A stretch of 64,000 nucleotides of DNA from Daucus carota subsp. sativus (Eukaryota > Streptophyta > Magnoliopsida > Apiales > Apiaceae), in contig NC_030386.2 of NCBI RefSeq assembly GCF_001625215.2, forward strand, positions 38,939,296-39,003,295, in the 5' to 3' direction. This document shows positions 36,710 through 56,134 of the stretch, piece after piece (positions within the stretch are counted from its first letter, which is position 1; each line of letters opens with the position of its first letter). A program made the position numbers and the translations under genes. The notes under the pieces were generated by a model. That model did no database searches. It saw only the letters and a list, made by a program, of their open reading frames with translations, and was not told the origin of the DNA.

Positions 36710-36832
36710 GATTTTACTAATGTAGTTCGCCATGCTTTTGTGCTTATGTTAAGAACCATACATGTTTGTGCCTTGATCAGTTCAAAAACTCGTCTTTTCA
36801 CCGATAGTATGTTGTGCTTTTATTATTAACCA

Positions 36833-37920: not shown

Positions 37921-37958
37921 GTTAGTGTGAGATGAATGGGCCAACTAGCTCAGGTGTG

Positions 37959-38042
37959 TTGTTGGATGTTGAATGGAAGAATAATGAAACTACGGAAGCT
38001 CTTCTCCAAGGATTAGAAAGACTCAAAAATATTTTCAACTGA
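37959..38042 (+). pseudogene. Conserved 27-residue C-terminal fragment, copy 1
   Basis: LLDVEWKNNETTEALLQGLE, then RLKNIFN and a stop. The same peptide with three changes ends at 51953. Its reading frame is kept in both copies despite base changes, so it was once the end of a protein. I do not recognise the family. Confidence 0.4.
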
Positions 38043-38533: not shown

Positions 38534-38642
38534 TGGAGAAGCGAGGAATCGAACCTCGATCCTTGTTTCTGTGAGAAACATTCACACATCATTGTAAGAA
38601 GTGGAAATTCAAATCGGTGCTCTACCATTGAGCTACTTCCCC
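38534..38642 (-). tRNA. tRNA-Ala-like element A, anticodon loop CAC, with insert
   Basis: Read on the minus strand: acceptor GGGGAAG pairs with CTTCTCC (with G3:U70, the alanine identity pair), D arm GCTC-AATGGTA-GAGC, anticodon arm TGTTT-CTCACAG-AAACA, variable loop of five, T arm CGAGG/CCTCG, discriminator A. An insert of about 40 nt separates the D arm from the anticodon arm. A run of six T follows 9 nt downstream of the 3' end. Anticodon CAC would be valine, at odds with the alanine-type acceptor. Confidence 0.45.
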
Positions 38643-38904
38643 ATATAATGATTTTTGTTTGGTTTTATATGTTATCTTACCAAATACTAACATAGCTCAA
38701 TTTTTTTTTTTTTATAGATGTGTGAATGAAAATTTTACTGAAATTATATGAAGTAATCTGTTTTTAAAACTGCACTATGAACTAATATAATCATCTTCAT
38801 TTAACAGCTGATGAATTAGTAATTAAGAAATTTGATCAAACCATTTTGCAGGGTAGAGTGAAATAGGAAGACAAAGGGTTGGTAATGATGGATTTTTGTT
38901 TCAG

Positions 38905-39165
38905 TGAAGAGGAGGCTAATGAGTTATGTCGAACTCTGGAAGACAATGAAGAAATTTCACGGACTGCATCAGGAATGGTCGATGTTCCATATCATGCAAT
39001 GATTTCATATTCTGTGAGAGAAGAGACTATGGAAGAGGACTTGACTATTTTTCCGCAAATATTTTCAAGATCAGGCATTGGGGAAAAAAGAGCAGACTGC
39101 AAGGAAGCTGTAGTAAACATGTTTTTTAGAAAAATCATAAAGGAAATTGTAGATAGAACTTAGTT
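38905..39165 (+). pseudogene. HISN2 last-exon copy 2 (HisE fragment), frame open
   Basis: From an acceptor-like TTTGTTTCAG, the frame EEANELCRTLEDNEEISRTA continues through MVDVPYHAM and ends SRSGIGEKR. It is the C-terminal part of the pyrophosphatase domain. Unlike the other copies it has no frame break over this part, but substitutions such as DVPYH for DVLYH suggest relaxed selection. About 100 bases downstream come the HISN2-type 3' UTR motifs (CTGTAACCTTGATTTTGTAT). Confidence 0.65.
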
Positions 39166-39621
39166 AGATAAGTGAATAGATAGATAGATGGGATAATTTA
39201 AGAGATATTCTATTTCTAGACTGGCCAGGACTTGCAAACTCCTGTCTGTAACCTTGATTTTGTATTATATTTTGATATATTTTGTTATAAACTCGGTGAA
39301 TCATCTGAGGTAATCTTTAGAAGCATCAAGCGCATATTTGATTGTCCTTGTTTAGATTTCATCAATGTAAGCACTCCAAGAACCCTGATTCTGAATCTAA
39401 AGAGCTAACACTTTTGTTTTTCTATGTCATCTAACACGCGAGATGAAGGAAAATAGGCTGCATAAACTATATAGAACAATAACGAAAAAGCAAAATAAAG
39501 CCAAAAGTTAGGAAAAATATACATAGAGAACTGAAGTTCCATGAACTAATTTAAAGAGCATCGAAGATAAATGAGATTCGACTATTTAAAAAAAATATCA
39601 AAAATCTTAGGGAAAAAACAA

Positions 39622-39722
39622 TGGAGAAGCGAGGATTCGAACCTCGAACCTTGTTTCGCATGAAACATTAACATCCGATGAAATTGGATAATTTTTTTGC
39701 TCTACCATTGAGCTACTTCCCC
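39622..39722 (-). tRNA. tRNA-Ala-like element B, shortened anticodon loop
   Basis: Same acceptor, D and T arms as element A, with G3:U70. The anticodon stem TGTTT/AAACA closes a six-base loop CATGCG, one base short. The insert (31 nt) can itself pair as TTATCC/GGATGTTAA. A run of six T lies 4 nt downstream. Confidence 0.42.
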
Positions 39723-39761
39723 AATTAATTAGTCTTTCTGTTTGTATCTATAAATTAACTA

Positions 39762-39996
39762 CTCCTTCCATTCCAAAATAATAGTCGCTTTGACTTTTTG
39801 CACGTATTTTGAGGTGCATAAAAAACATATTTGTAAATATTATTTTTCAAATTTTCTTTTTTTGAATAAAAATAGGGATGTTAAACTTTTATTCAGAAAA
39901 AGAAAAATTCAAAAATAATGTATAGAAATATGTTTTTTTTACACCTCAAACTACGTGCACAAAGTCAAAGCGACTATTATTTTAGAATGGAGGGAG
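39762..39996. mobile_element. Stowaway MITE
   Basis: CTCCTTCCATTCCAAAATAA at the left is the inverse of the right end TTATTTTAGAATGGAGGGAG, and TA flanks both ends (39760-39761, 39997-39998). The arms continue pairing (TAGTCGCTTTGACTTT with AAAGTCAAAGCGACTA). 235 bp, non-coding. Confidence 0.92.
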
Positions 39997-40060
39997 TAAA
40001 TGGTATGATATTTGAAACTTATTTTATTTATAATTATATGAATGAATAATTAATTTGTAG

Positions 40061-40086
40061 TTTGCTCTACCATTGAGCTACTTCCC
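40061..40086 (-). repeat. 5' fragment of a tRNA-Ala-like element
   Basis: GGGAAGTAGCTCAATGGTAG on the minus strand, the acceptor and D arm only. The rest is missing. Confidence 0.6.
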
Positions 40087-40324
40087 AATTCATGAATCTT
40101 CTTTGTTTGTATCAATAAATTAACTAAATAGTAATATAAATGAATGGATAATTAAGTGAAATTTTATGAAGTACTAAGTTTAAACTACACACAGTTTTAA
40201 GCCTGTTGCAACAAGCTGTTATTAAGCTTGAGGTGCACATATGGCAAAGTTGTCTCTTTTTTCTCCTTATATCTGGACATTTTTATATTCATTGCTAATT
40301 ATGTTTGAAATTTTTTGTTGCCGT

Positions 40325-40400
40325 GAGGAGGCTGATGACTTATTTCAAACTCTAGAAGACAACGAGCAGCACAGACTGCATAAAAAATGGCTAATGAACA
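40325..40400 (+). pseudogene. HISN2 last-exon copy 3, short remnant
   Basis: EEADDLFQTLEDNE after an acceptor-like TTGCCGTGAG, then frame loss. This marks the left side of the block carrying the first F-box gene. Confidence 0.55.
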
Positions 40401-40681
40401 CTTGTTCCATTGTATGTTAAATTCATTACCGACACAAATACTTGCATTAACATTTGTCAGTACTAGTAAGTTAGGGATTAGAGAGGCCCACAGTTGGATT
40501 AAAGCAAACATATGGGAAAGTCCTGTCATGTTCACTTTGGTAGAGTTACAGCCGAATGCGAGAAGCTGCTAGATGGTCCGGTTTGTCACCAGAATTAAAA
40601 AAGACGGTGTAGAGAAGCCACAAATCAAACTTTGTTTAAGCATGAAACATTTATGCAATCTATTTATAAAAAAAAATGATA

Positions 40682-40788
40682 TGGAGAAGCGAGGAATCGA
40701 ACCTCGATCTTTGTTTCTGCGAGAAACTTTCACACATTCTGTAAGAAGATGAAATCGAACCGGTGCTCTACCATTGAGCTACTTCCCC
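40682..40788 (-). tRNA. tRNA-Ala-like element C, anticodon CGC (Ala)
   Basis: Acceptor, D and T arms as in element A, G3:U70 present. Anticodon arm AGTTT-CTCGCAG-AAACA gives CGC, an alanine anticodon with T33 in place. Insert of about 38 nt. A run of nine T lies 5 nt downstream. Of all copies this one and its twin at 46186 come closest to a consistent alanine tRNA. Confidence 0.48.
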
Positions 40789-41324
40789 ATTTAATTAGTT
40801 ATATTTGTTTTTAAATATTAAGTTGTTGTCATAATCAGCCACTTGACTTAGCGTAGGAGCCTGGAGGTGATTGGAGGTCCGAAGAAAATAAGATTTTAAG
40901 CATGCTTCGGGTCTTATCATTAGTGAGGTTACAACAGAAGCTAGTCGAATGCTCGAATTGGGATCTGGCTGCTCTTGTTGGAGGACTTGCAAACTGATCT
41001 ACGGTTTCTCTGTAACCTTGATTTTGTATTATATTTAGTTATAATACTAATAATGGGGATACGATTAATTATCAGGTTGATTATAAGGAGGACAAGGAAA
41101 AGAAGTTTAATTGACACCTGTGGAATATAGTAAACAAAACCTTTACTGGTTTCCAAACCATCAGACTAAATATAAATGCAATACATATACAAATTAAAGG
41201 GTAAATGGAGAAGCGAGGGGCTGATATATGTAATATCAGTATTCACTTGACCAGTTCAACTTATTTATTAGCGACGAAAAGAGAGAAATACAAAAGAAAG
41301 CAGCAGAAGCCAATTTTACAAGAT

Positions 41325-42452
41325 TTAAGTATATGACTCTTCACCAAGCAAGCCCAAGCTCTCCACGAAAGGACTTGCTCCTATTCCCCGAGTAAATGGT
41401 CCAATGTCAAGAGCTGAACATAAGTCCAATAAATCATCAATGATCTCTGTTGGCTCACCCTTCTCAATATCGTAGGACTTAAATCCATATGGATAGCATC
41501 TTTTCAATATTATTTCATGATTACTCATAAAACATACGGGATCTTGTTCAATATTCTCAAGATCAAGTCTAAATTTGTGCGTCCAAACATCCGCATCTCC
41601 TAGTAGCCATATGTCAAGAAAAGAGGGGCAGCCATTAACATAGTCGAACCCGAAAAGAAACAGGTCACTGAAATTTTGAACAAGGGTGATAGAATTCACT
41701 AGAGAACGATATTTCAATGGCATCATAATCTCTTGCATCATCTCACTCTCTATGTCAAAACAAGCAATAGATCCTCCTGTCCCATTCCAATAGGCAACAC
41801 CATTCACGATAACTGGTTTATCAATATTTCGGGATAGTGGGAGCATGCCTTTGCTAACCGTCTTCCAAGAAGTCTTCCAAGAATTAGTACTTAAGCTATA
41901 AACAAGCACAACAATTTTGTCCGAAATATATCTTCCAATTTCATCATAAGGTCTCACAGTATTGATTACCTTGTAATCATTCATCTTATGTACATATCCA
42001 AAAGCTAAACCCGTGGCGTCAAAACTCCCGCCCGATGATGGATCAGGTATAGGACAACGGGGACTGGTTTTAAATTTTCGAATAACGGGGTTCCAAAGAA
42101 AAATCCGCAGCGGCCTCGGATTATTATGACTCAAATGACTTAAACATATAAGACCATTCGATATTCCAAGTACTTTTGCATGCTTAAAATCTTGAGGAAA
42201 GGGCAGGGAAGAATATTGGTTAAATTGCTTGTCGTTGACACATAAGGAAATAGGCCTATTACAATAGTTGGTGTGAAAAAGAATATAAGCAGGAGTGTTG
42301 TTCTGATGATACCAAGAGAGAGCCTTGTTAAAGTCAGGACTTTGTATTAGACGATACCATGATTTTTGAACTAACATGAGTCTGATAAGAGATGGTACAG
42401 GAAGTCTTTTGAGAATCTCGGTCAAGATATCTTCAGAGAAAGAAGCACCCAT
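41325..42452 (-). CDS. F-box protein with F-box-associated domain, copy 1
   Basis: A 375-residue intronless F-box protein, probably a substrate receptor of an SCF ubiquitin ligase. The F-box is at residues 5-46 (FSEDILTEILKRLPVPSLI, then KSWYRLIQSPDF). The rest is an F-box-associated beta-rich domain with the usual signatures LGISNGLICL, LWNPVIRKFKT, GLAFGYVHKMNDYKVI and VYSLSTNSWKTSWKTV. Many plant relatives (CPR1 type) control defence proteins, but the target here is unknown. A second copy at 46857 is nearly identical. The start ATG lies about 50 bp after a TATA box. Both frames are open, so both copies may be active. Confidence 0.9.
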   Translation of the reverse strand: MGASFSEDILTEILKRLPVPSLIRLMLVQKSWYRLIQSPDFNKALSWYHQNNTPAYILFHTNYCNRPISLCVNDKQFNQYSSLPFPQDFKHAKVLGISNGLICLSHLSHNNPRPLRIFLWNPVIRKFKTSPRCPIPDPSSGGSFDATGLAFGYVHKMNDYKVINTVRPYDEIGRYISDKIVVLVYSLSTNSWKTSWKTVSKGMLPLSRNIDKPVIVNGVAYWNGTGGSIACFDIESEMMQEIMMPLKYRSLVNSITLVQNFSDLFLFGFDYVNGCPSFLDIWLLGDADVWTHKFRLDLENIEQDPVCFMSNHEIILKRCYPYGFKSYDIEKGEPTEIIDDLLDLCSALDIGPFTRGIGASPFVESLGLLGEESYT

Positions 42453-42500
42453 TGTTGTTTGATATTGAATATTGATACCACGGCAAACGATGAATGTACA

Positions 42501-42510
42501 TTATTTATAG
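42501..42510 (-). promoter_or_regulatory. TATA box of F-box gene 1
   Basis: CTATAAATAA on the minus strand, about 50 bp upstream of the ATG and 17 bp from the terminus of an hAT element. Confidence 0.6.
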
Positions 42511-42526
42511 ATAGTTGGATCAAAAT

Positions 42527-42767
42527 TAGGGTTAAAAATGGGCAGCCCGTCTTAAACATTTAAGGGGCCTCGGCTGATATAAAAAACTTGGGCCCATAAT
42601 TTAATACTATCAAAATTTAATTTTTTTATAGGAATTAGAATTACCCATTTTTGAACAGGGCATCTCATTGCTGATATAAAAAACTTGGGCCCATAATTTA
42701 ATACTATCAAAATTTAATTTTTTTATAGGAATTAGAATTACCCATTTTTGAACAGGGCATCTCAGAA
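42527..42767. mobile_element. hAT left end upstream of F-box gene 1, with internal tandem repeat
   Basis: TAGGGTTAAAAATGGG starts right after ATCAAAAT, as in the full element at 48081. The interior then departs from that copy, and a 97-bp unit starting CTGATATAAAAAACTTGGGC is present twice (42574 and 42671). The right terminus cannot be found, so this copy is truncated. Confidence 0.6.
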
Positions 42768-43172
42768 TGAGATGCCCTCAATTTTTCTTCTCCCTCGTCT
42801 TCTTTTTCTGGTTCCTAAATCCTACACATCAAAACAAATTTGTCATTACATAAACATAAGATTCATATTTCAGAAACACAGGGGCGGAAAGAAGCAATTT
42901 GGTGTGCATCTAACAGTGTAATCAATTACATTAAGCAACCATTTGTAATCAATAGAGAGATTTTGCACCTTGACATTTTTGATTAGGGCTTCAATGGACA
43001 TGAGTTTTCGAGCAATGGAAAGCTCATGAATTCACTCTCTTCCATGCCGAAATCCCACTGAATTTCCACTTCACTTTAGGTTGCATCACAACAATCGAGT
43101 TTATAGTTATTAAATGTTCGGATACAATGATCTCTTTATGGGTCATTGTACATTCTACCAACTCAGGATAAT
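42768..43172. other. Intergenic, nothing recognised
   Basis: Short unique stretch between the F-box promoter side and the next duplicated block. A 68-codon minus-strand frame at 43024-43230 has no family features. Confidence 0.4.
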
Positions 43173-43470
43173 CGTACCAGCCGGGGCCTAAAGCGAAAAA
43201 TAAAATAAGAAGTCGCAAGTTCATCTTCACATGCAGTCATAAATTTTCTGGGAATCATATGTTAAGTCTTAGAAAACTGATCTTTGAGGGAAAAGTACAT
43301 AGTACTAATATGTACCTCTAGCGTACCTTGACGCAACAAATTATTGTTTAGACTAGAGGATACTAGATGTAAAAGGTCCGATCTGCCCAACACCCAAAAA
43401 CCAAACCCAAAATACTATTTTCAGTGAAGATCATAATGCCTTTCAACCAAAAATTAAGAAAAAGCATGTG

Positions 43471-43517
43471 TGGAGAAGCTATGGATCGAACCTCGGACCT
43501 TGTTTTTCTACTTCCCC
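43471..43517 (-). repeat. Internally deleted tRNA-Ala-like element D
   Basis: Has the 3' T arm and acceptor (CGAACCTCGGACC, TGGAGAAGC in plus sense) joined straight to the 5' acceptor end CTTCCCC; D arm and anticodon arm are lost. Confidence 0.6.
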
Positions 43518-44162
43518 ATTTGATGATTTGCATTTGTTTTACATGTGAATTAACTGAAATTATATGAAGTAATCTCTTATAAGAGAAACCGTCGCTTATT
43601 CTAACTGAAATTAAGGATTTATTTCTTCTCTTTCCGGGTTACTGGGCTTCTTGCTCTTTTGTAAAGGATCACTGGGGTTTATGACCCCGACGGATGGAGG
43701 AAACCAACTACAGGCAAGATTAAGGTTAATACTAATGCTTCAATATTCAGTTCTTCTGTTGTTACAGATACTCATTTGTAGCAAGAAATCATAACGGGAT
43801 TTCAGTTTGTTTTTAAAACTGCACTTATTGGAGGAAATGCGAACTGATCTATAATTGTCTCCTACCTTTTATTTGATTGTCCTTTTTAAGGTTTCATCAA
43901 AGTAAGCACTCCAAGAACCTTGCTTCTGAATCTAAAGAGCTAACACTTCTGATTTTTTTTTTTGTGAGCCAACACACCTGATAAAAGGAAATAGACTTCA
44001 TGAACTATATAGAACAATAAAGAAAAGGCAAGATAAAGCCAGGAGTTATGAAAAATATACATGGAAGAGTGTGGTTCTGTGAACTAATCTAAAGGGCATC
44101 GAAGATAGATGAGATTCAACTATTTAATAGAAGAACAATCAAATCTCAGGGGAAAAAAAATA

Positions 44163-44256
44163 TGGAGAAGCGAGGATTCGAACCTTGTTTCGCATGAAAC
44201 ATTAACATCCTAAGAAATTAGATAATTTTTTTGCTCCATCATTGAGGTACTTCTCC
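44163..44256 (-). repeat. Decayed tRNA-Ala-like element E
   Basis: Retains the general plan and a T-run downstream, but part of the T arm is deleted and the acceptor and D arm have changes. Confidence 0.5.
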
Positions 44257-44414
44257 AATTCATGAGTCTTCTTTGTTTGTATCTATAAACAAACTAAATA
44301 GTAACAGAACTAAAACTTATTTCATAGTAGTGTAAAACTGAAAAAAGCAAGCAAAACCAATTTTACTTCCTGATTTGCTCTATGCATGAAGCAAGGATAA
44401 GCGCCAGCAATATG

Positions 44415-44450
44415 TGGAAGAGGATTCGAACCTCTAACCTTGTTTCTGCC
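44415..44450 (-). repeat. 3' fragment F of a tRNA-Ala-like element with compensated T arm
   Basis: The T stem is AGAGG/CCTCT where other copies have CGAGG/CCTCG: both partners changed, which points to past selection on pairing. Confidence 0.5.
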
Positions 44451-44487
44451 AAAAAAATAGTGTAAAACACAAATATAAATAAATTCA

Positions 44488-44592
44488 TGGAGAAGCGAGA
44501 ATTCGAACCTCGAACCTTGTTTCAGCAAGAAACAGACCAAAATATGATCAATTCACAATGTGTTAATGCTCTACCAGTTGAGCTACTTCCCC
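44488..44592 (-). tRNA. tRNA-Ala-like element G, anticodon TGC (Ala)
   Basis: Acceptor GGGGAAG/CTTCTCC, D arm GCTC-AACTGGTA-GAGC, anticodon arm TGTTT-CTTGCTG-AAACA with T33 and anticodon TGC, and a seven-base T loop. The T stem has one mismatch (CGAGG/TCTCG). Insert of about 34 nt. No T-run follows closely, so termination is doubtful. Confidence 0.4.
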
Positions 44593-44632
44593 GCTGATAC
44601 AGCTAGGATATGACAATTTACAGCTATTATAA

Positions 44633-44656
44633 TGCTTTACCAATCGAGCTACTTCT
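44633..44656 (-). repeat. 5' fragment H of a tRNA-Ala-like element
   Basis: D arm region AGCTCGATTGGTAAAGC on the minus strand with part of the acceptor. Confidence 0.5.
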
Positions 44657-44817
44657 TCAATGTAGTTATTATATATCTTTGTTTTATCCTTGAATTCAGT
44701 ACTAGATGATAATGCATATGAAAATATTAAAAATAGTTCCTTGCAACATGATTTAGAAATAATTAGTTCTGTTGAATCCTTGCAACATGATTTAGAAAAT
44801 GGTAATAAAAAAAATAA

Positions 44818-44938
44818 TGGAGAAGCGAGGATTCGAACCTCGAACTTTGTTTCTGCATGAAACAATTGTATCGAAATTGTACCGAAATTGTACCAACAAT
44901 TGATATGATTATGTGCTCTACCATTGAGCTACTTCCCC
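44818..44938 (-). tRNA. tRNA-Ala-like element I, anticodon TGC, longest insert
   Basis: Complete acceptor, D and T arms with G3:U70. Anticodon arm TGTTT-CATGCAG-AAACA: anticodon TGC but A instead of T at position 33. The insert of about 50 nt has a repeated GGTACAATTTC unit, so it has grown by slippage. A run of seven T lies 6 nt downstream. Confidence 0.42.
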
Positions 44939-45369
44939 GATGATATTTTAAATGTGTATTCATTTTATGTAATGTTCACTTTAATATAATGAGAATCATT
45001 TGAAGCTTATATGAATCAGATAAGGACGTGATATTCTATTCTGGAAAAAAAAATCATATTGTTACTAATTGATATTAACGAAGCATAAATTTTCTCTGGA
45101 AGAGTTTGCAATATTTAAAACTGATGTCTAACCGCGTTCTGATATTTTTCCCAGTACATCTCAGTTCTGTATTCCGACAATAAGTAGTAGCGCACTAAAC
45201 TTGAGTACTTAAACCATTGTTGAAGTTTTTTTTTGTTCTTTAAATTTGTGGAAAGGAGGTACTTTCTATTGAACTAGAATATGATCGGTTTTGAATTGAG
45301 AATTTGATGTGACATTTGTCGAGGTAGTAGTCTAGGTGTCTAACAACTTACAATATTGGAATAATTATA

Positions 45370-45414
45370 TGGAGAAGCGAGGATTGGAACCTCTAACCTT
45401 GTTCCAGCAAGAAA
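45370..45414 (-). repeat. 3' fragment J of a tRNA-Ala-like element
   Basis: T arm, acceptor 3' strand and part of the anticodon arm; no D arm. Confidence 0.5.
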
Positions 45415-45551
45415 CGACAAAAAAAGTGATCCAAAGAGGTTAATATGCATAATGCGAAATTTATGTTGTGCAACAAAATGGATGAACCTTGTTTAGGGAG
45501 CCGGCTGCCCTATTTAATAGAAGAATTATTAAATCTCAGGAAAAAAAAATG

Positions 45552-45652
45552 TGGAGAAGCGAGGAATCGAACCTCGAACCATGTTTCGCATGAAACACTA
45601 ATATCCTAGACATTCGGACAATTTTTTTGCTCTACCATTGAGCTACTTCCCC
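45552..45652 (-). tRNA. tRNA-Ala-like element K, shortened anticodon loop
   Basis: All arms present with G3:U70; six-base anticodon loop CATGCG as in element B. The insert pairs TGTCC/GGATA. A run of nine T follows. Confidence 0.42.
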
Positions 45653-45775
45653 AATTCATGAGTTTTCTTTATTTGTATCTATAAACTAACTAAAATACTA
45701 ACATAACTGAGACTTTTTTCCTTCCTTTTTTTCTGCTAAGTAGTGTAAAACATGAAAAAGCAAGCAAACAAAATC

Positions 45776-45799
45776 TAACAATTGAGCTACTTACCCTTT
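45776..45799 (-). repeat. 5' fragment of a tRNA-Ala-like element
   Basis: AGTAGCTCAATTG on the minus strand only. Confidence 0.4.
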
Positions 45800-45851
45800 G
45801 GTATATTTTGTAAATTTTTGATTTAAGAATATAATTATTTAGTACTAAATA

Positions 45852-45900
45852 AACTCTAGAAGACAACGAGCACCACAGACTGCATAAAAAATGGCTAATG
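45852..45900 (+). pseudogene. HISN2 last-exon copy 4, short remnant
   Basis: ACTCTAGAAGACAACGAGCA, identical in kind to the remnant at 40350. It marks the exact junction where block C copy 1 ends and the second F-box block begins. Confidence 0.5.
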
Positions 45901-46185
45901 AACACTTTTTCCATTGTATGTTAAATTCATTACCGACACAAATACTTGCATTAACATTTGTCAGTACTAGTAAGTTAGGGATTAGAGAAGCCCACAGTTG
46001 GATTAAAGCAAACATATGGGAAAGTCCTGTCATGTTCACTTTGGTAGAGTTACAGATGAATGAGAGAAGCTGCTAGATAATCCGGTTTGTCACCAGAATT
46101 AAAAAAGACGGTGTAGAGAAGCTACAAATCAAACCTTGTTTAAGCATGAAACATTTATGCAATCTATTTATAAAAAAAAATTAGG

Positions 46186-46292
46186 TGGAGAAGCGAGGAA
46201 TCGAACCTCAATCTTTGTTTCTGCGAGAAACTTTCACACATTCTGTAAGAAGATGAAATCGAACCGGTGCTCTACCATTGAGCTACTTCCCC
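46186..46292 (-). tRNA. tRNA-Ala-like element L, anticodon CGC (twin of C)
   Basis: Duplicate of the element at 40682, with one mismatch in the T stem (CTCAATC in place of CTCGATC in plus sense). Anticodon CGC with T33. A run of nine T lies 7 nt downstream. Confidence 0.42.
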
Positions 46293-46856: not shown

Positions 46857-48005
46857 TTAAGTATATGACTCTTCACCAAGCAAGCCCAAGCTCTCCACGA
46901 AAGGACTTGCTCCTATTCCCCGAGTAAATGGTCCAATGTCAAGAGCTGAACATAAATCCGATAAATCATCAATGATCTCTGTTGTCTCACCCTTCTCAAT
47001 ATCGTAGGACTTAAATCCATATGGATAGTATCTTATCAGTAATATTTCATGATTATTCATAAAACATACGGGATTCCAGAACAGTCTGTCTTGTTCAATA
47101 TACTCAAGATCAAGTCTAAATTTATGCGTCCAAACATCGGCATCTCCTAGTAGCCATATGTCAAGAAAAGAGGGGAAGCCATTAACGTAGTCAAACCCGA
47201 AAAGAAACAGTTCACTAAAATTTTGAACAAGGGTGATATTACTCACTTGAGAACGATATTTCAATGGCATCATAATCTCTCGAATCGTCTCACTCTCTAT
47301 GTCAAAACAAGCAATAATCAATCCTCCTCTCCAATTCCAATACGCAACACCATTCACGATAACTGGTTTATCAAAAGGTCCGAATTGTGGGAACATGCCT
47401 TTGCTAACCGTCTTCCAAGAAGTCTTCCAAGAATTAGTACTTAAGCCATAAACAAGCACAACAATTTTGTCCGGAATATATCTTCCTTTCTTATCATAAG
47501 GTCTCACAAGATTGATTACCTTGTAATCATTCATCTTATGTACATATCCAAAAGCTAAACCCGTGGCGTCGAAACTCCCGCTCGATGATGGATCAGGTAT
47601 AGGACAACGGGGACTGGTTTTAAATTTTCGAATAACGGGGTTCCAAAGAAAAATCCTCAGCGGCCTCGGATTATGACACAAATGACTTAAACATATAAGA
47701 CCATTCGATATCCCAAGTACGTTTGCAGTATTCAGCTTAAAATCTTGAGGAAAGGGCAGGGAAGAATATTGGTTAAATTGCTTGTCGTTGACACATAAGG
47801 AAATAGGCCTATTACAATAGTTGGTGTGAAAAAGAATATAAGCAGGAGTGTTGTTCTGATGATACCAAGAGAGAGCCTTGTTAAAGTCGGGACTTTGTAT
47901 TAGACGATACCATGATTTCTGAACTAACATGAGTCTGATAAGAGATGGTACAGGTAGTCTTTTGAGAATCTCCGTCAAGATATCTTCAGAGAAAGAAGCA
48001 GCCAT
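46857..48005 (-). CDS. F-box protein with F-box-associated domain, copy 2
   Basis: A 382-residue twin of the F-box gene at 41325, differing by scattered substitutions and a few in-frame indels, for example extra LNTAN near residue 94 and a RLFWN insertion after EYIEQD. F-box at residues 5-46, then the same F-box-associated signatures. The frame is open further to 48077, but that start would place the promoter TATA box inside the coding region. I therefore use MAASFSEDIL, which matches the start of copy 1. Intact frames with in-frame indels in both twins suggest both have been under selection since the duplication. Confidence 0.9.
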   Translation of the reverse strand: MAASFSEDILTEILKRLPVPSLIRLMLVQKSWYRLIQSPDFNKALSWYHQNNTPAYILFHTNYCNRPISLCVNDKQFNQYSSLPFPQDFKLNTANVLGISNGLICLSHLCHNPRPLRIFLWNPVIRKFKTSPRCPIPDPSSSGSFDATGLAFGYVHKMNDYKVINLVRPYDKKGRYIPDKIVVLVYGLSTNSWKTSWKTVSKGMFPQFGPFDKPVIVNGVAYWNWRGGLIIACFDIESETIREIMMPLKYRSQVSNITLVQNFSELFLFGFDYVNGFPSFLDIWLLGDADVWTHKFRLDLEYIEQDRLFWNPVCFMNNHEILLIRYYPYGFKSYDIEKGETTEIIDDLSDLCSALDIGPFTRGIGASPFVESLGLLGEESYT

Positions 48006-48054
48006 TGAGGACTTGTGGTTTGATATTGATGCCACGGCAAACGATGAATGTACA

Positions 48055-48064
48055 TTATTTATAG
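48055..48064 (-). promoter_or_regulatory. TATA box of F-box gene 2
   Basis: CTATAAATAA on the minus strand, 50 bp upstream of the chosen ATG and about 17 bp from the terminus of the hAT element at 48081. Confidence 0.6.
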
Positions 48065-48080
48065 ATAGTTGGATCAAAAT

Positions 48081-49116
48081 TAGGGTTAAAAATGGGTAAG
48101 GGAGGGGCCTGTGTTATATAAAAAACTTGGGCCCATAATTTAATATCAAAAATTTTATTTTATTTTTTTTATAACAATAATAATTTTTTTATATGAAAAC
48201 AATTTGATAATATTAATTAAAAAAAATAGAAATGATTTATATTCATAAAGGAGGTGTAAATTTCAAAAATGAAAAGTTTTGGTACGAGCCTGCTTCTAGT
48301 TTTTCTCAAATATTATATATTTATAATCGGGCCAGAAATATTTGGGGGTCCTAAAAATTTGAAGGTCCTGTTCAGTTGGGCTGTTTGCACTCCTCAACAG
48401 TCGGCTCTGAAAATGAGACGGGTTCGGGACGGGTACTTCATTTTCCAGCCCCATCCCATATATATTTTTTCTGTCCCGTCCCCGCCCATTCCCCGCAGGG
48501 ATTTATTTTTAATCCCCGTCCCTGCTTAACTGAGGATTTAATATAATTTCGTTCATTTTGCCCCGCCCATCCCGCTGCTATATGTGATATTATATATTTA
48601 AATAATTACTTAAAAGTTTAGTAATTTTTTTTTCAGAATTTAATAAATATATACAATACATGTACATTAAAAACAAAAAAAACTAAAATAATACATGCAT
48701 GTCAAATTAGAATAACAACATAATCATGTAATATTTTCTTAATAATCGCTTTGCATGTAAAAACTTAAAGAAGCATGTTATATATAACTGTAGCACAAGT
48801 TAATGTACTGTGTCTACTAGCTGTAAAGTTATAGTTTTGTGAATCATAAAATAATAAAATTAAATACAGTAAATATATTATATTATATATAATAAATATA
48901 TTATATTCAATATTATTATTTATTTATATTAGATATATGCGGGGCGGGCGGGGAATCCCCGCGGAGATTTAACATATACCATACTTGCCCCAAATTTGGG
49001 CGGGGCAGAAAATTATTCTCCGTCACTACCACATTCCCATATTAACAGGACGGGGCTGCCCCACTCAAAGCGGGTTGGGGCGGTTCCCCATTTTCCCCAC
49101 CCCATTTTTAACCCTA
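48081..49116. mobile_element. Non-autonomous hAT transposon, 8-bp target duplication
   Basis: Perfect inverted termini TAGGGTTAAAAATGGG and CCATTTTTAACCCTA, with the 8-bp duplication ATCAAAAT at 48073-48080 and 49117-49124. Subterminal parts are rich in CCCCGCCC and GGGGCGGG. 1,036 bp, no transposase frame. It sits directly upstream of the TATA box of F-box gene 2, so it forms the promoter flank. Confidence 0.88.
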
Positions 49117-49384
49117 ATCAAAATTGGGTTTGAAATCTGATATCAGATCAAAATTGTGTTTGAAATAAGTTTGACATCAAAATATCTTTAACGATTCTGT
49201 TTATATTAATAAAAATATTATTATATTATTTTGAAAATAAATATTATAATATTATTTTATTTGTTTATATAACAATATTTTAGGAGTCCCCAATATTTCT
49301 ACGAAAGTCACACGATTTCTTGAATTAGCAGCCCAATCCTAGCAGTCCGTCTGATATGAAATCCAATAAACAAAATCCACTACA

Positions 49385-49413
49385 GGCCCAATAGCCTCCC
49401 CACAGAAACCCTA
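49385..49413 (+). promoter_or_regulatory. Site II element and telo box of HISN2-like copy 2
   Basis: GGCCCA (49385-49390) and AAACCCTA (49406-49413), as at copy 1, 66 bp before the ATG. Confidence 0.55.
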
Positions 49414-50220
49414 ATCTCTCTTCTCTGCTTATTCCCACTCCACTCATGATTGTTGTCGAAGCTGTAGAGCTTCTAACAATGTACACCCAATTCAATTGTT
49501 TTAACCCCTAAACCTCACACCAAAACGACGCCGTTTCACCAATCACAGAAATTCCTGTCCAAGAAGATGCTTTGTTTCCGCTACAATTAACAAATCTCAC
49601 CATCTCTCATCTGAATCAAAGGTATAAAAATAATATTCACATTTTTCGTATTTTATCTTTAATTTTCAATTTTTTATGTTTTGTTCTAAATTGTATTGTT
49701 GTTTTCGATAAGTTGTTATTTGAGATGTTTGAGTAATTGAGTTCAATATGCGAGTTGAAATGAGTTACAGCTACGATTAATATCCAAACATTTAGTCAAG
49801 TGCCTATTTGATATCGTGGTAGGTTCTGTTACATGTTTGGGAGATTATTATCGCCAGACGAAACGATGATCGATGGGTTTTCTATCGAATTATCTGCATA
49901 GCTGGCGATTAGGTTCATCGTTGCTAGGTTATATTTAATCAGTTATAGCCTCGGTTTCATGTGGACCGTACATCTAAATTAGATGAAATTGTAGTTTACG
50001 TCGGCTAGTTTTGACGATATCTAAAATTAACTGGTTTCGGAATTAAGGAGATGATATTTACGAATGTCCTGAAATATTTATTTTGTGCACTTGTTGTTCA
50101 GGTGGATTAATGTATGGACACTAATGGGGTGTCATTTGCTTTTTGTGTTAAGGTAAAATTATGGATCGGATTTGTGTTTTTGTTTAGTTTGACTTGGTGA
50201 TGTGTTTGATTTTCAAACTA

Positions 50221-50452
50221 CTCCCTATATTATTTTATTTGACGTTTTGACTTTTGCTACACATCTTTAAGTGGGTTGACCGAATACTAAAAATTATTAT
50301 TTTTGATTGATCTTTTTTGTGAATTGAAGTTTTGATTATATATTTTTATCTAGAAAAAGAAAATTCGAAAAATATATTTTTTTGAATATCCGGTCAAAGA
50401 ACTAAAAAGTGTGCGCCAAAAGTCAAAGCGTCAAATAAAAAAATAGAGGGAG
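50221..50452. mobile_element. Stowaway MITE inside HISN2-like intron 1, copy 2 only
   Basis: CTCCCTATATTATTTTATTT at the left is the inverse of AAATAAAAAAATAGAGGGAG at the right. TA flanks both sides. The paralogous site in copy 1 (near 36566, CAAACTATCATTG) has no element and a single TA, so it is the empty site. Confidence 0.93.
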
Positions 50453-50462
50453 TATCATTGCA

Positions 50463-50594
50463 GACATTGGCAGGTGTCTTTCCACAGTTATGGTTGTGGG
50501 GACCGTTGAATGTTTTGCTATAGAAAACGGTGTCCATCGTTGCCCAATAAACTTGCTAAAATGATTATTTGAGCTACATCTGGACATTACATTT
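50463..50594 (+). ncRNA. Candidate H/ACA snoRNA, copy 3
   Basis: Duplicate of the candidate at 36578. Apical stem CCACA/TGTGG, H box ATAGAA, hairpin 2 closed by TGTCCA/TGGACA. The tail is ACA-TTT, a true ACA box exactly three bases from the predicted end. This is the best-formed copy. Confidence 0.5.
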
Positions 50595-50716
50595 GAATTT
50601 ACTAATGTAGTTCGCCATATTTTTGTGCTTAAGTTAAGAACCATACTTGTTTGTGTTTGGATTAGTTCAAAAATTCTCTTTTCATCGATTGTATGTTGTG
50701 CTTTTATTATTAACCA

Positions 50717-50851
50717 GACATTGGCAGGTGTCTTTCCACAGTCATGGTTGTGGGGACCGTTGAATGTTATGGAACAGTAAGATCTGGTGTCCATCGTTGC
50801 CCAATAACTGTAATAAGATGGTTAATTGAGCTACATCTGGACACTATATTA
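50717..50851 (+). ncRNA. Candidate H/ACA snoRNA, copy 4
   Basis: Duplicate of the candidate at 36833, 254 bp after copy 3. H box ACAGTA, tail ATA-TTA. Both hairpins keep their closing stems. Confidence 0.45.
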
Positions 50852-50984
50852 ATTGCATTTGAATGTCAACCTTAAACTTCTTCATTCTTTCTGTAAATTT
50901 CTGTCCAACAAGGTACCTATAGTTATGAGAATGCTCTATTTTTCTTGTTTCATTGGCAGTGTTGGATATTTATGAATCCTATAT

Positions 50985-51115
50985 GATTGGAAGTTGCCTT
51001 CCAAAGTCTTGGTTGGGCATACTATTGTCTGTAGAAGTGAGAACTAAAGAGATCTTGCACTTCGTTGCTCAATAATATTACTACAATGGTTGTTAAAGTG
51101 ATGCCTGGAAGTTAT
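50985..51115 (+). ncRNA. Diverged candidate H/ACA snoRNA, copy 5
   Basis: Aligns by plan with copies 1-4: TTCCAAAGTCTTGGTTGG corresponds to TTCCACAGTCATGGTTGTGG, with the apical stem CCAA/TTGG re-formed, and CTTCGTTGCTCAATAA is shared with hairpin 2, now closed by CACTT/AAGTG. Neither an H box nor an ACA box is clear. It has no partner in HISN2-like copy 1. Confidence 0.28.
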
Positions 51116-51869
51116 TGATAAGTTCGCTTGCATCATGAACCTAACTTTAAAGAATTTGTTATGACCTGTTAATTGGTTTCTAGAAATCATTTGTCTATTA
51201 AAAATTCTTCTGTATTTAACAGTTGGTGAACTAGTATCTGACGGAGTGGTTCACTTGATATTCTTTTGGATAGTGTGAGATGGGATGATAAAGGTTTGCG
51301 GTGGCTATAGCCCAACATGTTGACACAGGAAGTGTCTTAATGCAAGGAATTGCCAACAGGGATGCACTTTCATACACCATTTCCTCGAAGAAAGCCACAT
51401 TTTACAGTAGCTCAAGGTCAAAGTTTTGGACTAAGGTCGAAGAAAGCCTCTATGAATTACATTAATCTGTGATATCTTCTGAGAGATTCGACAGAGGCTC
51501 TGTCAGACAAATTTGAAAATCCTGTATGATTTCACTTGTATTTGAGTTTACCTTCTGAACTACTCCGATGGACACTCTTGCCATACTGGATCAGAAAGGT
51601 GCCACTATATATCTGGTTTTGGATCTCTGCATAGCTCACAATGGTGTATCTTACCATCTTCCTTCAGCATGCATACCTCTTAATAAAGTTATATTTTTAA
51701 AACTTGATAGTAATTTTAATATTTGTCTTTGAGCAGGCAAAAGAAATTAAATTGGCGATGACGACATTACAGTCCCTAGAGGCAACAATCGTCCAACGAA
51801 AAGCAGAATCCTCAACTGCAAAGCCTTCAGGGACTAGGAGATATCTTTGGATGAGATATCTTGGGTGAG

Positions 51870-51953
51870 ATGTTGGATGTTGAATGGAAGAATAATGAAA
51901 CTACTAAAGCTCTTCTGCAAGGGTTAGAAAGAGCCAAAAATATTTTCAACTGA
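51870..51953 (+). pseudogene. Conserved 27-residue C-terminal fragment, copy 2
   Basis: MLDVEWKNNETTKALLQGLE, then RAKNIFN and stop. It is the partner of the fragment at 37959 and follows directly on the HISN2 linker piece. Family unknown. Confidence 0.4.
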
Positions 51954-52275
51954 ATGTAAGATTATTTTTGGATTAATTGGTTGCAATTTTTTGTTGGGAA
52001 GGTGAGTAATCTCTAATAGAACAAACAAATATTATGGTTGAGCGGTGTAATAAATATCGTTGATTTAAAATATTTATTTATGATAATTGTTGTTAATGTA
52101 AAATATTCATTGATTAATATTTTTATATATTTTTGTTTACATGTGATGGTATAAATAATTGTGAAAATAATAATAAAAGTTTCATTTCTTAAACCGGTGT
52201 TTTATATCCACCTTTCTCTCACATACCAAATAATGCCGAATTCCTTCCAGTATTATAATTGAACAAAAAATAAAA

Positions 52276-52465
52276 GGGTTTGTCTAGTGTGTGCCTATGA
52301 GCACATGCTAAGTGCGGAATTTTATAAGTTTAGGAGGTTTTGATTGGTGTGATTGTTGTATTTGCAGGGGGTCCATCATTATTAAGATATGAGAGCTAAT
52401 CAAAATCTTCCAAGTTTGTAAAATTCCGCGCTTAGCATGTGCCCATGGCCACACACTAGAAAAAC
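52276..52465. mobile_element. Fold-back MITE of 190 bp
   Basis: GGGTTTGTCTAGTGTGTGCC at the left, GGCCACACACTAGAAAAAC at the right, and inside GCACATGCTAAG faces CTTAGCATGTGC, so almost the whole element can fold on itself. A related end occurs at 12804. Confidence 0.75.
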
Positions 52466-52834
52466 TGATAATAAAATCATGTTTTCGCTACGGCTGGTAG
52501 CACTCAAGGGTTACTTCTCACTAGTTTCACTTGCCAAATTGTACCAGCCGGGGCCTAAAGCGAATAATAAAATAAAAAGTCAAGTTCATCTTCACATGCA
52601 GTCATAAATTTTCTGGGAATCATATGTTAAGTCTTTAGAAAACTGATCTTTGAGGGAAAAGTACATAGTACTAATATGTACCTCTAGCGTACCTTGACGC
52701 AACAAATTATTGTTTAGACTAGAGGATACTAGATGTAAAATTCCGATCTGCCCAACACTCAAAAACCAAACCCAAAATACTGTTTTCAGTGAAGATCATA
52801 ATGCCTTTCGACCAAAAATTAAGAAAAAGCATGT

Positions 52835-52882
52835 GTGGAGAAGCGATGGATCGAACCTCGGACCTTGTTTTTCTACTTCCCC
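52835..52882 (-). repeat. Internally deleted tRNA-Ala-like element M (twin of D)
   Basis: Same deletion as the element at 43471, so the deletion came before the block duplication. Confidence 0.6.
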
Positions 52883-53428
52883 ATTTGATGATTTGCATTT
52901 GTTTTACATGTGAATTAACTGAAATTATATGAAGTGATCTCTTATAAGAGAAACCGTGGCTTACTCTAACTGAAATTAAGGATTTATTTCTTCTCTTTCC
53001 GGGTTACTGGGCTTCTTGCTCTTTTGTAAAGGATCACTTGGGGTTATGACCCCGGTGGAGGAAACCAACTACAGGCAAGATTAAGGTTAATACTAATGCT
53101 TCAATATTCAGTTCTTCCGTTTGTTACAGATACTCATTTGTAGCAAGAAATCATAACGGGACTTCAGTTTGTTTTTAAAACTGCACTTATTGGAGGAAAT
53201 GCGAACTGATCTATAACTGTCTCATACCTTTTATTTGATTGTCTTTTTTAAGGTTTCAACAAAGTAAGCACTCCAAGAACCTTGCTTCTGAATCTAAAGA
53301 GCTAACACTTCTGGGTGTTTTTTTTGTCAGCCAACACACGTTACACACCTGATAAAGGAAATAGACTTCATGAACTATATAGAACAATAAAGAAAAGGCA
53401 AGATAAAGCCAGGAGTTATGAAAAATAT

Positions 53429-53521
53429 AGAGAAGCGAGGATTCGAACCTTATTTCGCATGAAACATTAACATCCTAAGAAATTAGATAATTTTTTTGCT
53501 CCATCATTGAGCTACTTCCCC
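53429..53521 (-). repeat. Decayed tRNA-Ala-like element N (twin of E)
   Basis: Same T-arm loss as the element at 44163; the acceptor 5' strand and D arm are better kept here (GGGGAAGTAGCTCAATG). Confidence 0.5.
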
Positions 53522-53679
53522 AATTCATGAGTTTTATTTGTTTGTATCTATAAACAAACTAAATAGTAACTAAACAAAAACTTATTTCATAGTAGTGTAA
53601 AACTGAAAAAAGCAAGCAAAACCAATTTTACTTCCTGATTTGCTCTATGCATGAAGCAAGGATAAGCGCCAGCAATATG

Positions 53680-53716
53680 TGGAAGAGGATTCGAACCTCT
53701 AAACTTGTTTCGGCCA
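53680..53716 (-). repeat. 3' fragment O of a tRNA-Ala-like element (twin of F)
   Basis: Has the same AGAGG/CCTCT T stem as the fragment at 44415. Confidence 0.5.
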
Positions 53717-53752
53717 AAAAAATAATGTAAAACACATATATAAATAAATTCA

Positions 53753-53857
53753 TGGAGAAGCGAGAATTCAAAACTCGAACCTTGTTTCAGCAAGAAACAG
53801 ACCAGAATATGATCAATTCATCATGTGTTAATGCTCTACCAGTTGAGCTACTTCCCC
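53753..53857 (-). tRNA. tRNA-Ala-like element P, anticodon TGC (twin of G)
   Basis: Anticodon arm TGTTT-CTTGCTG-AAACA as in element G, but an extra base and change in the T loop (TTCAAAACTCG in plus sense) damage the B box. Likely inactive. Confidence 0.3.
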
Positions 53858-53897
53858 GCTGATACAGCTAGGATATGACAATTTACAGCTATTATAA

Positions 53898-53921
53898 TGC
53901 TTTACCAATCGAGCTACTTCT
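53898..53921 (-). repeat. 5' fragment Q of a tRNA-Ala-like element (twin of H)
   Basis: AGCTCGATTGGTAAAGC on the minus strand, as at 44633. Confidence 0.5.
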
Positions 53922-54081
53922 TCAAAGTAGTTATTATATATCTTTGTTTTATCCTTGAATTCAGTACTAGATGATAATGCATATGAAAATATTAAAAATA
54001 GTTCCTTGCAACATGATTTAGAATAATTAGTTCTGTTGAATCCTTGCAACATGATTTAGAAAATGGTAATAAAAAAAATAA

Positions 54082-54191
54082 TGGAAAAGCGAGGATTCGA
54101 ACCTCGAACCTTGTTTCTGCATGAAACAATTCTATCGAAATTGTACCAACAATTGATATGATTATGTGCTCTACCATTGAGCTACTTCCCC
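54082..54191 (-). tRNA. tRNA-Ala-like element R, anticodon TGC (twin of I)
   Basis: As element I but with one fewer GTACAATTTC unit in the insert and one acceptor change (CTTTTCC). Runs of T follow downstream. A at position 33 as in element I. Confidence 0.38.
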
Positions 54192-54624
54192 AATGGTATT
54201 TTAAATGTGTATTCATTTTATGTAATGTTCTCTTTAATATAATGAGAATCATTTGAAGCTTATATGAATCAGATAAGGATGTGATATTCTATTCTGATAA
54301 AAAAAAAATCATATTGTTACTAATTGATATTAACGAAGCATAAATTTTCTCTGAAAGAGTTTGCAGTATTTAAAACTGATGTCTAACCGTGTTCTGATAT
54401 TTTTCCCAGTACATCTCAGTTCTGTATTCCGAAAATAAGTAGTAGCACTAAACTTGAGTACTTAAACCACTGTTGAAGGTTTTTTTTTTGTTCTTTAAAT
54501 TTGTGGAGACGAGGTACTTTCTATTGAACTAGAATATGATCGGTTTTGAATTGAGAATTTGATGTGACATTTGTCGAGGTAGTAGTATAGGTGTCTAACA
54601 ACTTACAATATTGGAATAATTATA

Positions 54625-54670
54625 TGGAGAAGCGAGGATTGGAACCTCTAACCTTGTTCCAGCAAGAAAC
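54625..54670 (-). repeat. 3' fragment S of a tRNA-Ala-like element (twin of J)
   Basis: T arm and acceptor 3' strand only. Confidence 0.5.
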
Positions 54671-54809
54671 GGCAAAAAAAAAAGTGATCCAAAGAGGTTA
54701 ATATGCATAATGCGAAATTTATGTTGTGCAGCAAAATGGATGAACCTTGTTTAGGGAGCCGGCTGCCCTATTTAATAGAAGAATTATCAAATCTCAGGAA
54801 AAAAAAAAG

Positions 54810-54910
54810 TGGAGAAGCGAGGAATCGAACCTCGAACCTTGTTTCGCATGAAACACTAATATCCTAGACATTCGGATAATTTTTTTGCTCTACCATTGAG
54901 CTACTTCCCC
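54810..54910 (-). tRNA. tRNA-Ala-like element T, shortened anticodon loop (twin of K)
   Basis: All arms and G3:U70 present, six-base anticodon loop. A run of nine T begins 3 nt after the discriminator base. Confidence 0.42.
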
Positions 54911-55041
54911 AATTCATTAGTTTTCTTTATTTGTATCTATAAACTAACTAAATACTAACATAACTGAGACTTTTTTCCTTCCTTTTTTTTTTTTTCTGCT
55001 AAGTAGTGTAAAACATGAAAAAGCAAGCAAACAAAATCTAA

Positions 55042-55058
55042 CAATTGAGCTACTTACC
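55042..55058 (-). repeat. 5' fragment of a tRNA-Ala-like element
   Basis: TAAGTAGCTCAATTG on the minus strand only, twin of the fragment at 45776. Confidence 0.4.
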
Positions 55059-55189
55059 CTTTGGTATATTATGTAAATTTTTGATTTAAGAATATAATTA
55101 TTCAGTACTAAATAAACTACACTACGGATGGTCCATGTTTGTTAAACTATTTTACCTCAATTCTGGGTAAATCTTAATAGACACCTCAT

Positions 55190-55400
55190 CGTTGTCGAAC
55201 TCTGAAAGACAATGAAGAAATGTCACGGACTGACTGCATCAGAAATGGACATGTTCTGTATCATGCAATGGTTTTATATTCTATGAGGAGAGACTATGGA
55301 AGAGGACTTGACAGTGACTTTCCGCTAATATTTTCAGGGTCAGGCATTGAGGAAAAAAGAAGCGGCAGAACTGCAAGAAAGCTGAAGTAAACATGTTTTG
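55190..55400 (+). pseudogene. HISN2 last-exon copy 5, frame-broken
   Basis: CGAACTCTGAAAGACAATGA is the RTLEDNE part, followed by SRTA, then VLYHAMVL and FSGSGIEEK in shifting frames. A TGAC duplication and other small indels break it. Confidence 0.65.
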
Positions 55401-56134
55401 TTAGGAAAATCATAAAGGAAATTGTAGATGGAACACTATTGTTTTAATAATGAGCCACTTGACTTGTGGCAGGAGCCTGGAGGTCCGAAGAAAATAAGAT
55501 TTAGATCATGCCTCAAGTCTTATTGTTAATGAGGTTACAGCAGAAGCTAGTCGAATACGAGAAACAGTTTTATTAATTTGTACATAAGAATTGATAATAA
55601 TTTGTACATAAGAATTGATAATGATAATGTGCTCTACCGATTGAGCTACTTCCCCGATAATATTTTAATGTCTATTCATTTTATGTAATTTGCTCAATGA
55701 ATCTAGCAAATCCCATTTGATACTTTAAGTACATTATTGACAAATCTCAATAATGGAACTGTATCAAACCAATAAATGATTTATGTTGTGCGGCTGAATG
55801 GATAATTTACTTTTTGCTGGCTTCATCACAAGAAGTTGCAGGGCATAGTTTGGCAGCTCAATTTGCTGTTTTTGAGCTAGGTAAAGTATTTTGGAAAGTT
55901 ATACGTTGCTTCCGACAACAGAATTCAACATAATTAGAAAATTTTATGAAGAAACGAGGATCGGGGATAATACATGTGTATAATACTCTACCAATTGAGC
56001 TACTTCCCCTTCGAGGCCTTACATGTACCGATATGATTGCTACTTATGCTCTACAAGTCTCATAATGTGGTGGGAACAAGTCGAAATCATTTTGATGCAG
56101 GCTGTAACAACTCTAGTGTTCATCTAACTCGTCG
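55401..56134. other. End of the duplicated array and intergenic DNA
   Basis: Holds more HISN2-type 3' flank and two 5' fragments of tRNA-Ala-like elements on the minus strand (55629-55655 and 55984-56009, both with GGGGAAGTAGCTCAAT-type sequence), then the 3' flank of the serine hydrolase gene. A 20-base unit TAATTTGTACATAAGAATTG is tandemly repeated near 55574. Confidence 0.55.

Follow-up and report, generated by a model that had tools for sequence, protein, structure and literature searches.

What kind of gene, if any, is a sequence that keeps the arms of an alanine transfer RNA (tRNA-Ala) and is interrupted by additional nucleotides (nt) that separate the anticodon stem from the D arm? The question is raised by a locus of the carrot (Daucus carota subsp. 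sativus, contig NC_030386.2, positions 38,939,296 to 39,003,295), of which the whole stretch of 64,000 nt is called the window here; positions are those of the window, and all comparisons between copies were made within these 64 kb. An array of 12 near-complete tRNA-Ala-like copies and about 14 fragments, approximately 26 pieces in all, lies on the minus strand between 38534 and 56009 (17.5 kb). We tentatively read it, with a confidence a little short of an even chance, as a carrot-lineage family of RNA polymerase III (Pol III) genes derived from a tRNA-Ala gene with sequence added at this site. It may be a family of non-decoding tRNA-like RNA genes that was once, and perhaps still is, under selection, and that is partly decaying now.

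Anatomy and transcription signals

By their spacers, the 12 long copies fall into four subfamilies, A (A1-A3), B (B1-B5), C (C1 and C2) and D (D1 and D2), between which the inserts cannot be aligned. The acceptor strand GGGGAAG pairs with CTTCTCC, and the D arm (GCTC..GAGC) is followed by an A and then by the spacer; on the 3' side of the spacer a stem, UGUUUC/GAAACA, encloses an anticodon-like loop, after which come a variable loop of five bases (AGGTT or near), the T arm CGAGG..CCTCG and A73. The G3:U70 pair is present in 11 of the 12 copies, B2 having A3:U70, and the acceptor, D arm, T arm and five-base variable loop that the original prediction had described were confirmed. The unusual position claimed for the insert is also real: about 30-50 nt separate the D arm from the anticodon-like stem in all 12 copies (31-50 nt when counted as far as GUUUC, or one nt fewer if the U before it is paired), and the copies do not form a cloverleaf with a seven-nucleotide loop and U33 directly below the D arm. 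A canonical intron after base 37, which would place the 5' anticodon strand beside the D arm, was rejected, as by eye no subfamily shows pairing of the 3' strand with the bases that follow the D stem.

A seven-base anticodon loop with U33 is, to our knowledge, near-universal. The B and D copies have A in place of U33, and altogether 7 of the 12 copies have a non-standard loop, lacking either U33 or the seven bases (loops above the five-pair stem are given in Table 1). Positions 35-36 are GC in 11 of the 12 copies, while A1, with CAC, couples an alanine acceptor with a valine anticodon. Because of these seven loops and of the mixed identity of A1, most copies are unlikely decoders and would be poor ones even were the spacer removed.

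All three Pol III type 2 signals, namely an A box, a B box and a T-run terminator, were found, as had been claimed for most copies. By eye, the A box is altered in B2 and B4, and the B box departs from its consensus by one base in C1 and is spoiled in C2. T-runs of at least six begin within the first 11 nt downstream of the core in 9 of the 12 copies, against 2.1% of positions by chance; when five flanks are taken as independent, four of them have such a run (p ~1e-6). The A and B copies have in common a TATA-like, CAA-rich upstream block (by eye), which in such AT-rich DNA is only suggestive. Upstream TATA-box and CAA motifs together with downstream poly(T) are features of a fraction of plant tRNA genes, as stated in passages of a survey of plant nuclear genomes (PMC11700998).

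Conservation of the core and drift of the spacer

In the 10 copies that have all arms, comparison across subfamilies shows no difference in the first 25 nt other than an additional D-loop base in C; the anticodon arm with the 3' half is 80-98% identical over aligned bases. The spacers, in contrast, score at most 0.59 between subfamilies (matches over alignment length), where shuffled sequences have a mean of 0.49 and a maximum of 0.59. The 80-nt upstream flanks are likewise mostly in the shuffled range (mean 0.52, maximum 0.62); A1 against B3 and B5 reaches 0.65, and a related block directly upstream is retained in the A and B copies. The downstream flanks score 0.46-0.60 between subfamilies, values that have no baseline of their own.

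Intact and broken copies also differ in the first 25 nt, with 0 of 250 positions substituted in the 10 all-arms copies and 26 of 225 in nine broken ones, fragments included, whose 5' half is still present; the pieces at 43471 and 52836, in which only about 10 nt of the 5' end remain, and the 3'-only fragments were excluded from this count. Fisher's test gives 1.6e-9 by copy; by lineage, with counts set by hand, the broken set has 15 of 150 against 0 of 100 (p = 5e-4), or conservatively 9 of 124 (p = 5e-3). In the older pairs within subfamilies, gapped comparison of the core with the spacer plus 37 nt upstream showed the same direction: 2/71 core against 16/72 spacer and upstream positions changed for A1/A2 (p = 6e-4), 3/71 against 16/72 for A1/A3 (p = 2e-3), 1/70 against 7/65 for B1/B5 (p = 0.03) and 2/70 against 9/65 for B1/B3 (p = 0.03). 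For the same four pairs, core against spacer alone gives p = 0.02-0.11. No contrast between core and spacer was found in the four pairs involving the broken B2 or B4 (p = 0.25-0.56). These two copies, which have the T-arm deletion, have drifted in the retained 5' half (4/25 and 2/25), and such drift is not predicted by gene conversion or concerted evolution. Since the acceptor and anticodon stems are kept, and not the Pol III boxes alone, the pattern points to an RNA.

The insert had been predicted to be structured and to pair with itself, which was not borne out: in none of the 12 copies did the spacer, alone or within the whole element, fold better than its shuffles (p = 0.05-0.73, the lowest value being that of B3). 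Hairpins can be drawn in every spacer, and AT-rich random sequence yields them likewise. The spacers are not hypermutable either, as 5 of 139 spacer positions have changed between recent duplicates, compared with 2.4-4.1% of flank positions; the spacer of D1 has an 11-bp tandem duplication that is missing from D2. Overall, the spacer behaves as unconstrained sequence. As a separate observation, the spacers of A2 and A3 (40682-40788 and 46186-46292, minus strand) contain GGTTCGATTTC, which by eye resembles a B box, as if a piece of the T arm had been copied in.

The array, its duplications and its surroundings

The extent of the array agrees with the approximately two dozen tRNA-Ala-like elements, all on the minus strand over 17 kb, of the original prediction, and was obtained with three methods (Table 1). 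With the Rfam tRNA model RF00005, 9 of the 12 long copies score above the gathering threshold (42.4-48.7 bits vs 29), all on the minus strand, while B2, B4 and C2 miss it. A covariance model built from the 12 aligned copies, which recovers those 12 by construction, found nine further minus-strand fragments in the window (E <= 0.025); its lone plus-strand match (E 0.05) overlaps a fragment beside a palindromic stretch resembling a miniature inverted-repeat transposable element (MITE). Five shorter pieces were added by blastn with the two element halves, and the pieces at 44633, 53898 and 41206 among them were accepted at E 0.33-0.72 only; at that level three matches beyond the core cluster, one of them on the plus strand, and 46116-46136 were left out. 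ARAGORN found no tRNA.

A2 and A3 lie within one segmental duplication with an offset of about 5.5 kb, and a second one, with an offset of about 9.26 kb, holds the pairs B2/B4, C1/C2, D1/D2 and B3/B5. Local duplication therefore accounts for the single orientation of the pieces and for a large part of their number. The earlier statement that the insert varies by copy is correct in that spacers differ; the variation, however, is that of four subfamilies, several copies being recent segmental duplicates.

Table 1. Long copies and fragments of the tRNA-Ala-like array (window positions)
Feature	Positions	Strand	Loop	Remarks
A1	38534-38642	-	CUCACAG	109 nt; all arms intact; anticodon CAC (not Ala); T6 downstream
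B1	39622-39722	-	CAUGCG (6 nt)	101 nt; arms intact; T6 downstream
A2	40682-40788	-	CUCGCAG	107 nt; arms intact save a mismatch at the anticodon-stem foot; anticodon CGC; T9
B2	44163-44256	-	CAUGCG (6 nt)	94 nt; broken: 7-nt deletion removes part of the variable loop and T stem
C1	44488-44592	-	CUUGCUG	105 nt; arms intact, one T-stem G-U; B box one base off consensus; anticodon UGC; no T-run within 11 nt
D1	44818-44938	-	CAUGCAG	121 nt; arms intact; A at position 33; T8
B3	45552-45652	-	CAUGCG (6 nt)	101 nt; arms intact; T9
A3	46186-46292	-	CUCGCAG	107 nt; recent duplicate of A2, from which one substitution separates it (T-stem pair now U-G); T9
B4	53429-53521	-	CAUGCG (6 nt)	Broken; duplicate of B2 with the same T-arm deletion; 3' end damaged; T5 downstream
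C2	53753-53857	-	CUUGCUG	Duplicate of C1; B box spoiled by two T-arm changes; no T-run within 11 nt
D2	54082-54191	-	CAUGCAG	110 nt; arms intact; one C-to-U giving an acceptor G-U pair; T8
B5	54810-54910	-	CAUGCG (6 nt)	101 nt; arms intact; T10
5'-half fragment	39988-40086	-		Recognisable 40063-40086; adjoins MITE-like palindrome
Internally deleted copy	43471-43517	-		D arm and spacer mostly gone
Duplicate of 43471 fragment	52836-52882	-		
3'-half fragment	44415-44486	-		Recognisable ~44420-44446
Duplicate of 44415 fragment	53680-53751	-		
3'-half fragment	45370-45403	-		C-like loop
Duplicate of 45370 fragment	54625-54658	-		
5'-half fragment	44633-44658	-		4 substitutions; blastn E 0.72 only, extended by eye
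Duplicate of 44633 fragment	53898-53923	-		
5'-end fragment	45778-45796	-		
Duplicate of 45778 fragment	55041-55059	-		
5'-half fragment	55630-55655	-		0 substitutions; one extra D-loop base; upstream related to D1
Internally deleted copy	55947-56009	-		5' half well kept
Short 3' acceptor-end remnant	41206-41218	-		E 0.33, may be chance

Inside the duplication holding A2 and A3 there are two F-box genes on the minus strand (41325-42452 and 46857-48077); the nine proteins found with that of the former include the window's own, a Daucus carota protein at 88% identity, four from Heracleum and one from Apium. A further duplication on the plus strand relates stretches of 35670-38151 to 49323-52036, long parts of which are 87-92% alike, and each side contains two repeats of about 136 nt (36576-36708 and 36831-36966; 50461-50593 and 50715-50850). 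A sub-threshold match to the H/ACA small nucleolar RNA (snoRNA) snR191 lies at 36133-36326 (30.5 vs 46 bits), and a separate Rfam scan of 50300-51300 gave nothing; this pair of stretches may be a duplicated snoRNA host gene. Between B1 and the adjoining tRNA-like 5' half there is a MITE-like palindrome (39761-39997) with a sub-threshold MIR6224 match on both strands, to which the stretch at 50237-50438 is partly related. Dense palindromic tandem repeats of the GTTGCAACTG/AAGTTGCAAATG type occupy 58320-58645, with sub-threshold microRNA matches on both strands.

Evaluation of the possible explanations

Several observations weigh against a selected Pol III RNA gene family. The contrast in the 5' half is partly biased, because strong drift in the 5' half would cause a copy to be listed as a 3' fragment, and the broken set includes duplicates. 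B2, with four substitutions relative to B1 in its 5' half, has none in the remaining 3' half, which is unchanged apart from the deletion, and selection does not predict this. In recent duplicates (A2/A3, B3/B5, C1/C2 and D1/D2, with B2/B4 excluded) the core differs at 6 of 284 positions and the pooled flanks at 119 of 3436 (p = 0.30; 30/1275 and 89/2161 in the two duplications), so there has been no significant constraint since the last duplications. Paired changes in the stems among the aligned copies, a check set out earlier, were not found: none of the 22 pairs changed on both sides, and covariation was no better than shuffled. Six further pair types do retain pairing, three of them in the broken B2 and B4, and three events break a pair. 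Differences between subfamilies fall on 2 of 44 paired and 6 of 29 unpaired columns (p = 0.05), a weak tendency that gives p = 0.34 without the anticodon loop. Finally, C1 and C2 have no T-run within 11 nt downstream.

Much of this would be expected of a relic array, i.e., an inactive tRNA-Ala-like sequence with an insertion that was duplicated together with its neighbourhood and of which all copies are decaying, the likeness of the cores perhaps stemming from homogenisation or from functional genes elsewhere that supplied copies repeatedly. We give this explanation a substantial probability, although distinctly less than even: about 14 of some 26 pieces are fragmentary, the core in recent duplicates is not significantly slower than the flanks, compensatory changes and an ARAGORN tRNA are lacking, and the loops of 7 of the 12 copies are non-decoding. 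It does not account well for a 25-nt identity of the cores between subfamilies that are mutually random in their inserts and in most of their flanks, nor for 5'-half changes that pile up in broken copies and not in intact ones, nor for T-runs of at least six in 9 of 12 copies, and conversion tracts of 25 and 46 nt that always end at the tRNA borders seem unlikely. Among the options listed in the original prediction, a stable non-tRNA Pol III RNA best fits a pattern in which the core is kept and the spacer drifts; relics holds for at least B2, B4 and the fragments, and may hold for the other copies.

The remaining explanations are all improbable. Functional tRNA-Ala genes in which the 26/27 spacer is a non-canonical intron, taken out by a splicing step of unknown kind, would explain why the insert is constant in position and free in length and sequence, as introns are, with arms intact in 10 of 12 copies; A2, A3, C1 and C2 even have seven-base loops with U33 and the alanine anticodons CGC or UGC, and non-canonical introns are known from archaea, nucleomorphs and Cyanidioschyzon, according to passages of PMC4090602. 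However, there is no common bulge-helix-bulge: 7 of the 10 copies scanned have none near 26/27, the placements found differ from subfamily to subfamily, and chance alone yields one in 27-67% of shuffled inserts. With B loops of 6 nt, no U33 in B and D, and an A1 that would read valine codons with an alanine acceptor, this option of the original prediction gained no support and is held to be improbable. Still less probable is a mobile family resembling MITEs or short interspersed nuclear elements (SINEs), with tRNA-like ends. Its ends would be conserved and its middle variable, as observed, and the acceptor stem could be taken for a short, imperfect terminal inverted repeat, but every long copy and accepted fragment is in one orientation within 17.5 kb, kilobase segments are duplicated whole, no target-site duplication was seen by eye in the copy flanks, and the upstream sequences of A and B are partly homologous, which independent insertion would not lead one to expect. 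The slightest probability is given to elements acting at the DNA level, TFIIIC sites or boundary elements retained for their boxes only; the A and B boxes kept in most copies and the clustering agree with it, whereas the acceptor, the anticodon stem and the T-run are kept as well.

A phage or bacterial tRNA origin was rejected, as the exact matches of the 5' half in three IMG/VR contigs and of the 3' end in a fourth sit in other tRNAs. One such sequence (IMG/VR L001:843-951, also L002:2233-2341, minus strand) is a 109-nt tRNA match of 62.2 bits with an apparent intron, and it begins with the same 25 nt as the window elements. Exact 3'-half patterns had 0 matches in genome_contigs and the loop pattern 0 in viral_contigs, and a gapped-pattern match on contig L005 was judged unrelated by eye.

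Comparison with known systems

Among the titles and abstract openings listed from the open-access literature, none describes such a family, and the core sequences searched as text gave 0 matches. Many tandem tRNA clusters have been described in plants (passages of PMC12652284), and the nuclear clusters of tRNA-Pro, Tyr/Ser and Ile treated in parts of PMC11700998 resemble the carrot array in the local amplification of Pol III tRNA-type genes; those, however, are high-confidence tRNAs of other isotypes, whereas the carrot array has an Ala-type core with a 26/27 spacer. The same survey reports no intron-containing tRNA-Ala in the plant nuclear genomes it covers, Daucus being unmentioned in its main text, and copies of this kind would probably not have passed its high-confidence filter.

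The t-elements of plant mitochondria are also non-decoding tRNA-like RNAs recognised by tRNA processing enzymes, but they are mitochondrial, sit at mRNA ends, have no internal Pol III promoter, and are CCA-tailed and not aminoacylated (as given in parts of PMC11658184). Introns of archaea, of nucleomorphs and of Cyanidioschyzon have in common with the carrot spacers extra sequence at a non-canonical site, and the archaeal list includes 25/26; those introns go with a bulge-helix-bulge in archaea and Cyanidioschyzon, and for the Guillardia nucleomorph their excision was demonstrated, whereas the carrot array has no shared motif (passages of PMC4090602). The 5' tRNA-derived fragment (tRF) of Arabidopsis tRNA-Ala resembles the carrot 5' half in its GGGG start and in both D-loop Gs being kept. 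Passages of PMC9928184 report activities of tRNA-Ala 5' fragments in Arabidopsis, where inhibition of translation depends on G18 and G19 and not on the four 5' Gs; that fragment derives from an ordinary tRNA-Ala-AGC.

Proposed mechanism and implications

If the array is indeed a Pol III gene family derived from a tRNA-Ala gene, TFIIIC would read the A and B boxes and the transcript would terminate in the T-run. From established knowledge of the enzymes, the acceptor/T-arm minihelix and the elbow would then lead RNase P and RNase Z to trim it to an RNA of 101-121 nt, which would retain the spacer and would not decode; owing to G3:U70, charging by alanyl-tRNA synthetase would be possible in principle. 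Such a transcript would tolerate any sequence at the 26/27 hinge and keep its anticodon-like hairpin. Purifying selection would have acted on the cores, with spacer and flanks left to drift until random, and the array would have grown by duplication of kilobase segments, many copies having been broken since. A narrower version, in which this is an Apiaceae-specific, non-decoding nuclear tRNA-Ala-like RNA with an unconstrained loop of 30-50 nt, selected either for a stable RNA, which may be alanylated, or for the 5' fragments that it yields, is in our judgement rather unlikely; the invariant first 25 nt would suit a 5'-fragment role.

If the copies are transcribed, they would constitute a plant nuclear tRNA-like RNA family that keeps the arms of a tRNA and has given up decoding. 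They would also show, as a natural test, what amount of added RNA at the 26/27 hinge tRNA-processing enzymes and alanyl-tRNA synthetase can tolerate. If they are not, the carrot array would be a clear record of the birth and decay of an array of tRNA-type genes.

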